A stretch of 35,642 bases of DNA from an uncultured Pseudobutyrivibrio sp. GTDB taxonomy: Bacteria > Bacillota > Clostridia > Lachnospirales > Lachnospiraceae. The notes below the pieces were generated by a model. The model was not told where the DNA came from and did not search any database. It saw nothing but the letters and a program-made list of their open reading frames with translations. Below are positions 20,799 through 25,080 of the stretch, in pieces. The position numbers were made by a program, and so were the translations under genes. The DNA is taken from positions 1 to 35,642 of the forward strand of contig CAMJBT010000029.1 of the NCBI GenBank assembly GCA_946403965.1, in the 5' to 3' direction. How positions within the stretch are numbered: the stretch's first letter is position 1; each line of letters opens with the position of its first letter.

Positions 20799-20838
20799 CA
20801 CGTGAAACAAGCTTTTACGTGGGTTTTAAATATTTTTA
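20799..20838 (+). terminator. Weak terminator after rfbD
   Basis: CACGTGAAA (20799-20807) pairs with TTTTACGTG (20813-20821), with one G-U pair and a 5-nt loop. The tail is T-rich but interrupted. It may lower read-through from leuA-rfbD into the RNA and rfbB. Confidence 0.45.
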
Positions 20839-20860
20839 ATATTAAATGTGAATTTAGTAC

Positions 20861-21043
20861 GACAAATTCATAGAGTAAAGAGTTTGTAGTTTCCATATAT
20901 GTTATCTAAAAAGGCATTACGAGTCCGTCGGCACTTAGTGAGGACAAAGTCCGAACTTAGTACCGCTACGAGACGAGAATAGCGAGAGCGTGCCTTGTGA
21001 TAATATATATGGGAGCTACAAATAGATAGCTTAGGAATTTGTC
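20861..21043 (+). ncRNA. Structured RNA 1, upstream of rfbB, unknown family
   Basis: A nested set of helices. GACAAATTC (20861-20869) pairs with GAATTTGTC (21035-21043). TTTGTAG (20883-20889) pairs with CTACAAA (21016-21022). A 14-bp helix joins 20893-20906 with 20999-21012, and AAGGCA (20911-20916) joins TGCCTT (20991-20996). Inside is a hairpin at 20929-20965: CGG with CCG, two ACTTAGT segments opposing each other around a T-T mismatch, a tandem GA pair, and GGAC-AAA-GTCC at the tip. The 3' strand of the core carries AGCGAGAGCGTG (20981-20992), nearly identical to RNA 2. There is no open frame. It ends eight bases before the rfbB ribosome site, so it could control rfbB translation or transcription. 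I cannot match it to a known family. Confidence 0.7.
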
Positions 21044-21062
21044 CGTTAAAAAGGAGATTGAA

Positions 21063-22148
21063 ATGAGAACATATTTAGTAACAGGTGGAGCTGGTTTCAT
21101 CGGCTCAAACTACATTCATTACATGTTTAAGAAATACGACAACGAGATTCGTATCATCAATGTAGACAAGCTTACATACGCAGGAAACTTAGAGAACCTC
21201 AAGGATATTGAGAACCGCGACAACTACACATTCGTAAAGGCTGATATCTGCGATAAGGAAGCAATTCGCAAGGTTTTTGCAGAGAACGATATTGATAGAG
21301 TTGTTCATTTCGCAGCAGAGTCACACGTAGATCGTTCAATCAAGAACCCTGAAGTATTTGTTCAGACAAACGTTCTTGGTACAGCAGTTATGCTTAACTG
21401 CGCAAAGGAAGCATGGGAGCTTCCAGATGGAACATTCAAGGAGGGAAAGAAGTTCCTTCACGTTTCAACAGACGAAGTTTATGGTTCTCTTCCAGATGAT
21501 GAGAATGCATTCTTCTATGAGACAACTCCATATGATCCACATTCGCCATATTCAGCTTCAAAGGCATCTTCAGACATGCTTGTAAAGGCTTACATGGATA
21601 CATACAAGTTCCCTGCAAACATTACAAACTGCTCAAACAACTATGGCCCTTACCAGTTCCCAGAGAAGCTAATTCCACTTATCATCAACAATGCGCTTCA
21701 GGGCAAGGATCTTCCTGTATATGGTGATGGCAAGAATGTTCGTGACTGGTTATTCGTAGAGGATCACGCAAAGGGAATCGATATGGTTCAGGAGAAGGGT
21801 AAGCTCTTCGAGACATACAATATCGGTGGTCACAATGAAAAGCAGAACATCGAAATCATCCACATTATCCTTGATACACTTCAGGATATGCTTCCAGAGG
21901 ATGATGAGCGTCAGAAGCTTGTTTCAGATAAGCTTATCAAGTATGTTACAGATAGAAAGGGTCATGACAGACGTTATGCTATCGCCCCTGACAAGATTAA
22001 AGCAGAGGTAGGCTGGGAGCCAGAGACATGCTTTGAGGAAGGAATCAAGAAGACAATCGAATGGTTCTTTGAGCATGAAGAATGGATGAAGAATGTTACA
22101 TCTGGTGACTACCAGAAGTACTATTCAGATATGTACTCTAATAAATAA
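21063..22148 (+). CDS. rfbB: dTDP-glucose 4,6-dehydratase RfbB
   Basis: Second step of dTDP-rhamnose synthesis. Rossmann motif TGGAGFIGSNYIHY, catalytic HVSTDEVYGSL and YSASKASSDM (Tyr and Lys), NCSNNYGPYQFPEKLIPL and GDGKNVRDWLFVEDH are all typical; 361 residues. The frame extends upstream to a TTG at 21039, but that lies inside the RNA helix and lacks a ribosome site. ATG at 21063 has AAGGAGAT (21051-21058) and gives MRTYLVTGGAG, the usual start. glf follows after 31 bases. Confidence 0.96.
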   Translation: MRTYLVTGGAGFIGSNYIHYMFKKYDNEIRIINVDKLTYAGNLENLKDIENRDNYTFVKADICDKEAIRKVFAENDIDRVVHFAAESHVDRSIKNPEVFVQTNVLGTAVMLNCAKEAWELPDGTFKEGKKFLHVSTDEVYGSLPDDENAFFYETTPYDPHSPYSASKASSDMLVKAYMDTYKFPANITNCSNNYGPYQFPEKLIPLIINNALQGKDLPVYGDGKNVRDWLFVEDHAKGIDMVQEKGKLFETYNIGGHNEKQNIEIIHIILDTLQDMLPEDDERQKLVSDKLIKYVTDRKGHDRRYAIAPDKIKAEVGWEPETCFEEGIKKTIEWFFEHEEWMKNVTSGDYQKYYSDMYSNK

Positions 22149-22179
22149 TTAGGTTCGCAATGACTTACGAGGTGTCAAA

Positions 22180-23325
22180 TTGACTAATTACGATTATCTT
22201 GTAGTAGGCGCAGGCCTTTTTGGTGCTACGTTTACTTACGAAGCGATTAAACGTGGTAAGTCCGTTCTAGTAATCGACAGACGAAATCACATTGCAGGAA
22301 ATATTTACACAAAGGAAGAGGATGGCATCAACGTTCATGTGTATGGTGCCCACATCTTCCATACAAGCGACAAAAAGATTTGGGAATATATGAATCAGTT
22401 CGCTGAATTCAACAATTACATCAATTCCCCAGTGGCAGTTTATAAGGATGAGCTCTATAATCTTCCATTCAACATGAATACTTTTTCGAAGATGTGGAAC
22501 ATCAAAACTCCAGCTGAGGCAAAGGCAAAGATCGCTGAACAGATAAAGGAACTTAACATCACTGAGCCTGCTAACCTTGAGGAACAGGCTCTTTCTCTTG
22601 TTGGAACTGATGTATACGAGAAGCTTATAAAGGGCTACACCCAAAAGCAGTGGGGACGTCCATGCAATGAGCTTCCAGCATTTATCATAAAGAGATTGCC
22701 TCTTCGTTTTACCTACGACAACAACTACTTTAACGATAGATTCCAAGGTATACCAATGGGTGGCTATACACAGATTGTTGAGTCTATGCTCAAGGGAGCA
22801 GATGTTGTTTTAGAGCAGGATTATTTTGATATGGTTGGTGGTGTGGAGAACGCACCAGAATCCTTCGAAGGAATCCTAAACGATGGTACAAAGGTGAGCT
22901 GGAGCAAGCTATTGTTCACAGGCCAGATTGATGAATATTATGGCAGCTGCTATGGACCGCTAGAGTATCGTTCAGTTCGCTTTGAAACAGAAAAGCTTGA
23001 TTGCGACAACTATCAAGGCAATGCAGTTGTAAATTATACTGAGGTAGAGGTGCCATACACTCGTATCATAGAGCACAAGCACTTTGAATTTGGACAGCAG
23101 CCAACCACTATCATCTCAAAGGAATATTCCAGCGAGTGGCAGCCAGGTGTTGAGCCATACTACCCAGTAAACAACGAGAAAAACAATGCAGTATACGAAG
23201 AGTATGCAAGCCGTGCAATCCGTGAAAACGGCGTTATCTTCGGTGGTCGCCTTGGCCAGTACAAATACTATGACATGGATAAGGTCGTAGCCGCAGCCCT
23301 AGAGGTGGTTGCTAAAGAATTCTAA
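22180..23325 (+). CDS. glf: UDP-galactopyranose mutase Glf
   Basis: Flavoenzyme that interconverts UDP-galactopyranose and UDP-galactofuranose, the donor of Galf to surface glycans. FAD-binding YDYLVVGAGLFGATFTYEAI near the N-terminus, DRRNHIAGN, VYGAHIFHTSDKKIWEYM, the substrate region RLPLRFTYDNNYF with GIPMGGYT, and C-terminal FGGRLGQYKYYDMD. The length of 381 residues is usual. Translation begins at a TTG with GAGGTG (22169-22174) before it. It sits between rfbB and rfbA, so rhamnose and Galf are probably made for the same polysaccharide. Confidence 0.96.
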   Translation: MTNYDYLVVGAGLFGATFTYEAIKRGKSVLVIDRRNHIAGNIYTKEEDGINVHVYGAHIFHTSDKKIWEYMNQFAEFNNYINSPVAVYKDELYNLPFNMNTFSKMWNIKTPAEAKAKIAEQIKELNITEPANLEEQALSLVGTDVYEKLIKGYTQKQWGRPCNELPAFIIKRLPLRFTYDNNYFNDRFQGIPMGGYTQIVESMLKGADVVLEQDYFDMVGGVENAPESFEGILNDGTKVSWSKLLFTGQIDEYYGSCYGPLEYRSVRFETEKLDCDNYQGNAVVNYTEVEVPYTRIIEHKHFEFGQQPTTIISKEYSSEWQPGVEPYYPVNNEKNNAVYEEYASRAIRENGVIFGGRLGQYKYYDMDKVVAAALEVVAKEF

Positions 23326-23339
23326 AGAACGTTGTAAAT

Positions 23340-23392
23340 TTAAGACTTATTTTTAAATTTCATATAATATAAATTCAGGCAGCGGAGCTGCC
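23340..23392 (+). promoter_or_regulatory. Probable promoter and leader hairpin before rfbA
   Basis: TATAAT (23363-23368) is a perfect -10 box, with TTAAGA (23340-23345) 17 bases upstream as a weak -35. A small hairpin follows at the likely transcript start (GGCAGC 23378-23383, GCTGCC 23387-23392). rfbA and the genes beyond could therefore be started independently of rfbB-glf. Confidence 0.5.
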
Positions 23393-23416
23393 GTCATATT
23401 TCAAATGGAGGAAATT

Positions 23417-24295
23417 ATGAAAGGTATTATTTTAGCAGGTGGTTCAGGCACAAGACTTTATCCACTTACAAAGGCAATTTCAAAGCAGATTATGCCAATC
23501 TATGATAAGCCAATGATTTACTATCCACTGTCTACTCTTATGTTGGCAGGTATTCGTGAAGTGCTTATCATTTCTACACCAAGAGATCTTCCAGTATTCA
23601 AGGAGCTCTTAGGTGATGGAAGCCAGCTAGGCATGGATATACAGTATGCGGTTCAGGAGGCTCCAAACGGTCTTGCTGAGGCATTTATCATCGGTGCTGA
23701 TTTCATCGGAAATGATGCAGTCGCACTTGTTCTTGGCGACAATATTTTCTACGGCCAGTCATTTTCAAAGGTGCTTCTTTCAGCAGCACAGCGTACAGAG
23801 TCTGAGCCAGGTGCTACAATCTTTGGTTACTATGTTCGTGATCCTAGAGAGTATGGTGTTGTTGAGTTCGATGAGAACGGCGTAGCTATTTCTATTGAGG
23901 AAAAGCCAGAAAAACCAAAGAGCAACTATGCAGTTCCAGGTCTTTATTTCTACGACAATTCAGTTGTTGAAATCGCAAAGACAATCAAGCCTTCTGCACG
24001 TGGTGAGCTTGAAATCACAGCAGTAAATAATGCTTATCTTGAGCGTGGAAATCTTCATGTAGAGACACTTGGTCGTGGATTTGCATGGCTTGATACAGGA
24101 AATCACGATATGCTTCTTGCAGCTGCTGAGTTCGTCAGCACATTCCAGAAGCGTCAGGGTATGTACGTTTCATGTATCGAGGAAATCGCATACAAGCGTG
24201 GCTTCATCAATAAGGAGCAGCTTCTTGAGCTTGCAAAGCCTCTTATGAAGACAGCTTACGGACAGTATCTCGTTGATGTATCAAACGGACTTTAA
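23417..24295 (+). CDS. rfbA: Glucose-1-phosphate thymidylyltransferase RfbA
   Basis: First step of the rhamnose pathway: dTTP plus glucose-1-phosphate to dTDP-glucose. Signature [42 protein letters not shown], the metal and substrate motifs VEFDENG and [20 protein letters not shown], then RGELEIT and WLDTGNHD. An upstream in-frame ATG at 23405 overlaps the ribosome site; ATG at 23417 with GGAGG (23407-23411) is the real start, giving 292 residues, the normal size. Structured RNA 2 follows 39 bases after the stop. Confidence 0.96.
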
Positions 24296-24327
24296 TCTGA
24301 TATTTTTAAACAATAATTTTAAAAAGT

Positions 24328-24333
24328 AAGGAG
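24328..24333 (+). promoter_or_regulatory. Displaced ribosome site of rfbC
   Basis: AAGGAG lies immediately before the first base of the RNA 2 helix. The rfbC start at 24502 is 168 bases further on, and only a weak AAAG (24495-24498) lies close to it. With the helix 24335-24490 closed, only 12 unpaired bases would separate AAGGAG from ATG. An in-frame TGA at 24490-24492 excludes an earlier start. Confidence 0.5.
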
Positions 24334-24334
24334 C

Positions 24335-24490
24335 AAACCTAGATATAGACTACTACTAGTATAATCAACTGACCATAAGGACCCATCCCTACTTAGATGG
24401 TGTGTAAGCAGCATCTTATGTAGGGTAATGAGGGCCGTAAGAGCGAAAGCGTGTCAGTGATTATGATAGTAGTAGAATATATCTAGGTTT
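24335..24490 (+). ncRNA. Structured RNA 2, between the ribosome site and start of rfbC
   Basis: The long closing helix is almost complete. AAACCTAGATATA (24335-24347) pairs with 24478-24490, CTACTACTA (24350-24358) with TAGTAGTAG (24467-24475), ATAATCA (24361-24367) with TGATTAT (24458-24464), and CTGAC (24369-24373) with GTCAG (24453-24457). Inside, CCCTAC (24387-24392) pairs with GTAGGG (24420-24425) and AGATG with CATCT above it, again with a T-T mismatch. The 3' core strand carries AGCGAAAGCGTG (24442-24453), 11 of 12 identical to RNA 1. The helix arms share no sequence with RNA 1, so the shape rather than the arm sequence is preserved. No open frame and no known family recognised. Confidence 0.75.
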
Positions 24491-24501
24491 GAACAAAGAC
24501 T

Positions 24502-25080
24502 ATGGCAATTACAGTTGAGAAAAATGTTAATGGTATAGAAGGCCTTTGTGTCATCACTCCAAAGGTATTTGGTGATGAGCGTGGCTATTTTATGGAGACC
24601 TACAACGAAAACGACATGAAGGCAGAAGGCCTTGATTATGTATTCGTTCAGGACAATCAGTCTGCCAGCAAGAAGGGCGTTTTGAGAGGTCTTCACTTCC
24701 AGAAGAATTTTCCACAGGACAAGCTTGTTCGTGTTATCAAGGGTGAGGTTTTTGATGTGGCTGTAGACCTTCGTGAAGGCTCAAAGACTTTCGGAAAGCA
24801 CTATGGAATTCTTCTTTCAGAAGAAAACAAAAAGCAGTTTATGATTCCAAAGGGATTTGCTCATGGATTCTTAGTTGTCAGTGATTATGCAGAGTTCTGC
24901 TACAAGGTTACTGATTTCTATCATCCGAATGATGAGGGCGGACTTGCCTTCGACGACCCTGATATTAATGTTCAGTGGCCAATTCCAGAAGGAATGACAA
25001 AAGAAGATTTAATCCTTTCTGACAAGGATAAAGTTAACGCAAGCTACAAAGAGTATTGCAAGGAGCATGGAATTCAGTAG
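24502..25080 (+). CDS. rfbC: dTDP-4-dehydrorhamnose 3,5-epimerase RfbC
   Basis: Third step of rhamnose synthesis, a double epimerisation. Cupin-fold motifs: ITPKVFGDERGYFMETYN, QDNQSASKKGVLRGLHFQ with the catalytic His, LVRVIKGEVFDVAVDLR, and IPKGFAHGFLV. The length of 192 residues is usual. The start ATG has no good ribosome site close by; the nearest strong one is upstream of structured RNA 2. This sets it apart from almost every other gene in the window. The GH25 gene follows after 42 bases. Confidence 0.95.
   Translation: MAITVEKNVNGIEGLCVITPKVFGDERGYFMETYNENDMKAEGLDYVFVQDNQSASKKGVLRGLHFQKNFPQDKLVRVIKGEVFDVAVDLREGSKTFGKHYGILLSEENKKQFMIPKGFAHGFLVVSDYAEFCYKVTDFYHPNDEGGLAFDDPDINVQWPIPEGMTKEDLILSDKDKVNASYKEYCKEHGIQ

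Follow-up and report, generated by a model that had tools for sequence, protein, structure and literature searches.

Correia/NEMIS repeats of Neisseria and ERIC repeats of enterobacteria are small dispersed inverted repeats with a core, resembling miniature inverted-repeat transposable elements (MITEs). Where they are transcribed, their long stems have been proposed or shown to alter the fate of the adjacent mRNA, with ERIC and NEMIS repeats described as targets of RNase III or as changers of mRNA stability (PMC2229807, PMC2649163). The pneumococcal BOX, RUP and SPRITE repeats are described as interspersed, strongly structured and probably parasitic sequences that may affect co-transcribed genes and are almost absent from other streptococci (PMC3049150), and REP/BIME sequences as dispersed palindromes of alternating orientation (PMC2817692). 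TwoAYGGAY (RF01731, clan CL00106) is an RNA family of unknown function, graded in the table of a 2010 paper as probably RNA, probably not cis-regulatory and no riboswitch (PMC2864571). Here we analyzed a 35,642-nucleotide stretch of DNA from an uncultured Pseudobutyrivibrio sp. (assembly GCA_946403965.1, contig CAMJBT010000029.1; hereafter the window), in which two copies of a structured element stand in a rhamnose operon, copy 1 before an rmlB-like gene and copy 2 before rmlC. Both copies belong to a large, apparently uncatalogued RNA family scattered in gut and rumen bacterial genomes. We give about an even chance to the reading that the element is a dispersed MITE-like structured RNA of Lachnospiraceae which, in Pseudobutyrivibrio, serves as an intercistronic element of the mRNA, most likely in its processing or stability.

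Like TwoAYGGAY, the element holds a conserved core inside a long closing helix, occurs in many copies per genome within the same bacterial family (TwoAYGGAY was found in 35 of 200 genomes, with up to at least 13 per genome) and has back-to-back neighbors, the close pairs of TwoAYGGAY (gap of at most 500 nt) being 5 divergent and 1 tandem among the matches listed. The architecture is different: in place of two AYGGAY hairpins, the element has one hairpin with a variable loop (P3) and a GNRA mini-hairpin. Neither window copy matches RF01731 (gathering score 43 bits), and no RF01731 match was found in 20800-24520 at E up to 5. The window's own genome carries three TwoAYGGAY matches, and among 20 loci from other genera the sole RF01731 match is a neighbor of the element, with which it stands back to back (L105). 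One TwoAYGGAY match in the window's genome (G000:C1:44556-44717; L435, 1257-1418, minus strand) lies inside a giant palindrome that reaches far beyond the Rfam model. The element resembles Correia/NEMIS and ERIC repeats as a small dispersed inverted repeat with a core; unlike theirs, its core includes a GNRA mini-hairpin and is maintained through covariation in many genera, and no target-site duplication was seen (by eye, in the subfamily of genome G229). It shares with BOX, RUP and SPRITE an interspersed and strongly structured nature. BOX repeats are modular, and the ends, core and inner insert of the element likewise combine; in contrast to the narrow distribution of the pneumococcal repeats, the element occurs in at least 127 of 334 Lachnospiraceae genera sampled. 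REPs are short (20-40 nt), whereas the element measures about 180-205 nt with its outer arms and has an elaborate conserved core.

Fold, covariation and taxonomic spread

The fold of copy 1 has a minimum free energy (MFE) of -76.4 kcal/mol against a shuffle mean of -39.07 (z -9.65) and that of copy 2 one of -73.6 kcal/mol against -36.08 (z -9.20), with 0 of 200 shuffles as good in either case. The closing helices comprise 9+4+25 pairs in copy 1 and 14+9+8 pairs in copy 2. Among the window's 25 listed inverted repeats, only the arms of copy 2 lie close together (90 nt), the others being at least 2.5 kb apart. The core AGCGARAGCGTG, with one mismatch allowed, has two sites in the window (0.09 expected; two sites in 1 of 100 shuffles), and the T-T mismatch of the inner hairpin (U-U in RNA) sits within a nearly invariant ACUUAG/CUUA internal loop. 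An earlier note, made from the letters of the window, had described this fold, mismatch and common core, and all three are borne out. The closing-helix arms of the two copies have no sequence relation to each other, as the note also observed, but its inference that no copied repeat element was involved did not hold, since the RNA family is dispersed and near-identical young copies exist.

The suggestion of a structured RNA class without a known family stands: at gathering scores the window has no match to any Rfam 15 family, and a search of 20800-24520 with E up to 5 gave none either; Rfam searches of other loci likewise left the element itself unmatched. Matches to MIR831, MIR8001 and traJ_5 at other loci were far below gathering scores and were disregarded. 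No description of the element was found in the titles and abstracts of open-licence literature on structured RNAs and repeats of these bacteria, on TwoAYGGAY and on a 224-motif screen; a large human-microbiome screen (PMC8040213) may include it without a name.

The core pattern led to a third copy elsewhere in this genome, in the purN-purD gap (genes named from translated sequence). The covariance model R1, built from these three sequences, recovered all three in that genome and a weak, decayed fourth, which is without the GNRA loop and lies 5' of a capD-like gene (named by eye; L441, G000:C33:29025-29154). R1 matched 29 of 61 genomes, namely 25 of 29 from Pseudobutyrivibrio (own genome included), 4 of 8 from other Lachnospiraceae genera and 0 of 24 from other families of the order. 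With a second model, R2, matches were found in at least 144 of 397 Lachnospiraceae genomes and at least 127 of 334 genera, counts that are floors (8 candidates were scored per genome, and the R1-positive G032 was missed). Across the order R2 matched 60 of 392 genomes, all 60 of them Lachnospiraceae, and across the phylum 5 of 398, one of which (G804) lies outside this family. Eight carrier genomes with 150 candidates scored held 3, 16, 3, 5, 16, 8, 36 and 2 matches. Named carriers among the 80 stretches listed, of at least 120, include Blautia, Mediterraneibacter, Acetatifactor, Anaerobium, Butyrivibrio and Lachnospira; the few bins from other phyla among the matches listed are, we think, mis-binned contigs. 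The core pattern had 0 matches in viral contigs (IMG/VR). The covariance-model search of related genomes that the earlier note had proposed thus gave many further copies.

Its proposed covariation check gave a strong signal as well. Across 111 distinct sequences, 89.3% of cells were paired, a share that fell to 26.7-48.5% once partners were slid by 1-3 columns; covariation scored 0.616 versus at most 0.093 slid and 0.160 shuffled, and 1511 cells carried double changes versus 429 shuffled. Because the alignment had been fitted to a model, each sequence was also folded alone: 102 of the 111 formed at least 75% of the pairs of the closing helix (P1) and 106 at least 75% of the base of P3, both mini-hairpin pairs formed in 87, and P1, P3 base and mini-hairpin formed together in 79. 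Selection acts on the pairing of the element. Its consensus is a core hairpin with the nearly invariant ACUUAG/CUUA loop and a GC-GNRA-GC mini-hairpin, enclosed by a closing helix whose sequence drifts while its pairing is kept. Nearly invariant are the internal-loop strands ACUUA and UUA..GU and the segment AGC-GNRA-GCGU. By pattern, 119 of 127 rows have a GNRA loop with GC closing pairs. In alignment A4, which holds 114 of the 127 matches, the third loop position is always a purine (114 of 114; 104 A, 10 G), and 3 distinct sequences have U-A in place of C-G as the second mini-hairpin pair. The 13 matches left out of A4 were 4 repeats of the same copies in overlapping loci, 2 loci (L007, L035) and 7 rows below threshold, including two antisense reads of a palindrome. 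Wobble cells of P1 are 116 G-U versus 8 A-C; the folding strand is therefore the sense strand, and the asymmetry favors RNA as the folded molecule.

The median identity of P1 is 0.54 for copy pairs with core identity of at least 95% (161 pairs) and 0.37 for those with core identity of 0.7-0.8 (1779 pairs). Before the same gene in different species, pairing was kept through double changes in 11 of 19 P1 columns for tpiA (n = 7 sequences), and in 7 columns for rmlB (n = 7), 19 for rmlC (n = 9), 13 for pflA (n = 3), 9 for fabK (n = 4), 8 for hgdC (n = 3), 6 for lrp (n = 7), 3 for purD (n = 3), 2 for hgdB (n = 3) and 2 for capD (n = 2). Where P1 identity is very low, as in rmlC (down to 0.11), drift is indistinguishable from independent insertion or replacement. 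The weakest pairs of the model are those of the linker; columns 44-112, for example, are unpaired in 76 of 111 sequences. The idea of a kink-turn at this linker found no support; copy by copy, the linker can be fitted as a helix with either tandem G-A or Watson-Crick pairs. That the GNRA loop might dock on the ACUUAG/CUUA loop, an idea prompted by a resemblance to the 11-nt tetraloop receptor, is still a guess, as loop and receptor types have no clear association.

Placement relative to genes and dispersal

In Pseudobutyrivibrio, 93 of 110 copies have a start codon within 75 nt in the sense direction versus 6 of 110 for the antisense equivalent, and 72 also have a same-strand stop codon within 110 nt upstream. 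These were unique copies fetched from the top of the match lists with orthologues included, and p-values on placement therefore overstate certainty. The site follows the stop codon of one operon gene and precedes the ribosome-binding site of the gene after it; together with the sense bias, this position supports an mRNA role in the genus, where a cis-acting function, as the earlier note proposed, is plausible. The sense bias is much weaker in other genera. The two window copies do adjoin dTDP-rhamnose genes, as the note had it, and the domains encoded behind them agree (Table 1). A link to dTDP-rhamnose biosynthesis was nevertheless rejected, because other copies precede unrelated genes: purD, tpiA, pflA, fabK, fabD, fabZ, cysS and others (read by eye from N-termini).

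Copies within a genome share a unit that holds the element, of 203, 176 and 195 nt at 95-97% identity in G113, G109 and G158, and longer in G341 and G089 (281-427 nt at 86-93% identity). MITEs are non-coding, multi-copy sequences shorter than about 300-600 bp; with units of 176-205 nt and up to 36 copies per genome, the element has the size and copy number of one. A young subfamily in G229 has a unit of about 204 nt, arms GGGGCTGTAAAAAATCAAAAT and, often, T runs after it; the same arms are also found as bare terminator-like hairpins (L362, L375, L379). Terminal inverted repeats are clear in this subfamily. A 108-nt insert with four hairpins separates P3 from the GNRA hairpin at 10 of 30 G229 loci, always at the same point of the core; present in different subfamilies (L367, L370, L383, L384, L409, L418, L420 and others), it may be a nested element. 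Close neighbors among the fetched loci (gap of at most 500 nt) form 17 divergent pairs, 0 convergent and 1 tandem, two of the 17 being an inverted duplicate of one pair. Further divergent pairs occur in G442 (five) and G283 (one), and further tandem pairs in G242 (one, with a partial match) and G1083 (another). Upstream of pflA-like genes (L040, L051, L067, L076), the element occurs as back-to-back pairs whose model gaps measure just 28-36 nt. REP-like palindromes (TGTGCAATTTGGGGACAGTCCCC...) are found near or flanking copies in G341 (L132, L134, L136, L137). No replication-strand bias was found in G229 (14 lagging versus 11 leading, 11 of 36 unassignable, p 0.69), a weak test because the sampled GC skew changes sign four times. 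These flips lie on contig C1 (2.45 Mb) and may reflect inversion or misassembly.

The purN-purD gap has several fillings among 28 Pseudobutyrivibrio genomes (classed by eye): this element (A) in 3, an unrelated hairpin (B) in 2, a structured segment (C) in 3, tandem TTACCACTG hairpins in 7, short hairpins or remnants in 4, a cut by the contig end in 1 and a gap of at most 23 nt in 8. Here A, B and C have common ends, UUARAUGAGC and GCGGAYUAG. Loose forms of these ends flank both sides of 36 of 108 Pseudobutyrivibrio copies of A, and taken alone occur 5' in 53 and 3' in 45, versus 10 and 8 in a reversed-flank control; 2 of the 110 copies were omitted here for short flanks. Window copies 1 and 2 have outer ends of a different type. 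The outer ends of the element are exchangeable.

Proposed role and alternative explanations

Under the reading we favor, the element would be transcribed as part of the operon mRNA, where its long double helix would be an RNase substrate or barrier and so change processing or stability. The rigid fold on the 5' side would insulate and protect the downstream cistron, and neighboring genes of one operon could thereby be expressed at different levels. By analogy with ERIC/NEMIS repeats, processing or stability is most likely the process affected. Several observations weigh against this reading. Outside Pseudobutyrivibrio, 23 of 70 copies have a near start codon in sense and 9 of 70 in antisense, and 14 of 70 also have the upstream stop. 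Of the 26 G229 copies examined, 16 have the end of a same-strand gene at most 150 nt upstream and one has a same-strand start at most 75 nt downstream. Because of this placement, a pre-gene mRNA role does not explain the conserved core everywhere; the core would have another, more general reason, perhaps the element's own mobility. At the G229 unit ends no target-site duplication was evident by eye. A search for an autonomous copy, with an open reading frame within the core, took in 30 of the 34 G229 loci that fit the pattern and found none, the core spacing being 72-73 or 181 nt throughout; the term mobile therefore draws on the young dispersed copies, which presumably arose by movement. Double changes occur in 47 of 55 pairs, barely more than the 42.6 obtained with shuffling, a count that is less telling than the others. 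In the upper hairpin, wobble cells have no G-U excess (16 G-U versus 20 A-C), although the test is silent there because 14 of the 20 belong to one pair, columns 59-96. Finally, operon gaps may just tolerate a stem of this strength.

The dispersed copies and hairpin ends would also fit a single-stranded DNA element of the REP/BIME kind, its folded DNA strand recognized by a tyrosine (HUH) transposase or another enzyme acting on single strands and any effect on mRNA incidental. The BIME-like prevalence of divergent over convergent and tandem pairs and the REP-like palindromes beside some G341 copies point the same way, and a GC-GNNA-GC mini-hairpin is very stable in DNA too. We nonetheless regard this explanation as unlikely, given the sense bias to genes in Pseudobutyrivibrio, the invariable purine at the third loop position, which is the GNRA rule of RNA, and the lack of replication-strand bias in G229, weak as that test is. 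The very long and near-perfect arms, unrelated between copies, in genomes where giant palindromes are frequent, could be products of quasi-palindrome correction, with P1 pairing kept by template switching during replication and not by selection on a folded strand. Such correction is not expected to leave the strand-asymmetric mismatches seen in P1, and it leaves the conserved core loops unexplained; we consider it quite improbable.

Conserved core, compact fold and sense placement directly 5' of start codons are what a riboswitch or protein-binding leader would have, with one signal sensed and the downstream gene controlled. The list of unrelated downstream genes already makes this very unlikely, and the weak orientation bias in other genera, the many copies per genome and the finding that in sister species the same operon gap is empty or holds other hairpins count against it as well. 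A self-cleaving ribozyme that would cut the polycistronic mRNA is suggested by the intercistronic place and by the core, which is small and strongly conserved and whose invariant bases stay unpaired within drifting helices; with no Rfam ribozyme family matched and no known cleavage motif recognized, we see little probability in it. A broader proposal, possible though doubtful in our estimate, is that the element and TwoAYGGAY form one undescribed class of mobile RNAs: non-autonomous, with exchangeable arms and ends around a conserved folded core by which a dedicated machinery, either an RNA-binding protein or transposition through RNA, would take hold of them. In Pseudobutyrivibrio they would have been recruited as genome-wide tuners of intercistronic expression.

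At least 144 of 397 genomes sampled from a bacterial family dominant in gut and rumen thus carry a structured RNA without a match in Rfam 15, at up to 36 copies per genome. Because the same operon gap holds the element, other hairpins or nothing in sister species, any effect on expression should be readable by species comparison. TwoAYGGAY, so far unexplained, gains a context since both RNA families share genomic behavior, and the function of both becomes testable.

Window features and other gap fillings

Table 1. Positions of the two window copies, their helices and the genes that follow them
Feature	Position	Strand	Basis
Copy 1, whole element, 5' of rmlB-like gene	20861..21043	+	MFE fold; R1 match 20888-21017; 105.2 bits
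Copy 1 outer helix P0, 5' arm, partner 21035-21043	20861..20869	+	fold
Copy 1 closing helix P1, 5' arm, 25 pairs with 20999-21023	20882..20906	+	fold
Copy 1 helix P2, 5' arm, partner 20990-20996	20911..20917	+	fold
Copy 1 core hairpin P3 with ACUUAG/CUUA internal loop (U-U mismatch)	20923..20974	+	fold, conservation
Copy 1 GNRA mini-hairpin GC-GAGA-GC	20982..20989	+	pattern, fold
Copy 1 closing helix P1, 3' arm	20999..21023	+	fold
Copy 1 outer helix P0, 3' arm	21035..21043	+	fold
rmlB-like gene (dTDP-glucose 4,6-dehydratase), 3' of copy 1	21063..22148	+	PF16363, PF01370
Copy 2, whole element, 5' of rmlC	24334..24491	+	MFE fold; R1 match 24348-24477; 120.2 bits
Copy 2 closing helix, 5' arm, 14+9+8 pairs with 24458-24491	24334..24367	+	inverted repeat, fold
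Copy 2 helix P2, 5' arm, partner 24453-24457	24369..24373	+	fold
Copy 2 linker and core hairpin P3 with ACUUAG/CUUAUG internal loop	24379..24436	+	fold, conservation
Copy 2 GNRA mini-hairpin GC-GAAA-GC	24443..24450	+	pattern, fold
Copy 2 closing helix, 3' arm	24458..24491	+	inverted repeat, fold
rmlC (dTDP-4-dehydrorhamnose 3,5-epimerase), 3' of copy 2	24502..25080	+	PF00908

Among the other fillings of purine-operon gaps, type B is a long, imperfect hairpin with element-like outer ends that occurs at two neighboring gaps: purM-purN in the window's genome (L003, minus strand, about 2352-2260) and purN-purD in L159 and L171. Segment type C, 5' of purD in L154, L160 and L162, has GAGCGCGAG-like and CGGGAGCAUG-like motifs and the same outer ends; it has no Rfam match, and its pattern has 0 matches in the window's own genome. 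The tandem TTACCACTG...CAGTGGTAA short hairpins fill the purD gap in seven genomes (L156, L165, L167, L169, L173, L174 and L175).

Promoter-like sites around both window copies are not in excess (12 versus 12.3 expected from shuffles). By consensus match, rmlD and copy 1 are separated by a terminator-like hairpin (20799-20821), and a promoter-like site stands 5' of rmlA (23340-23368); if both are real, the rhamnose operon would consist of several transcription units.

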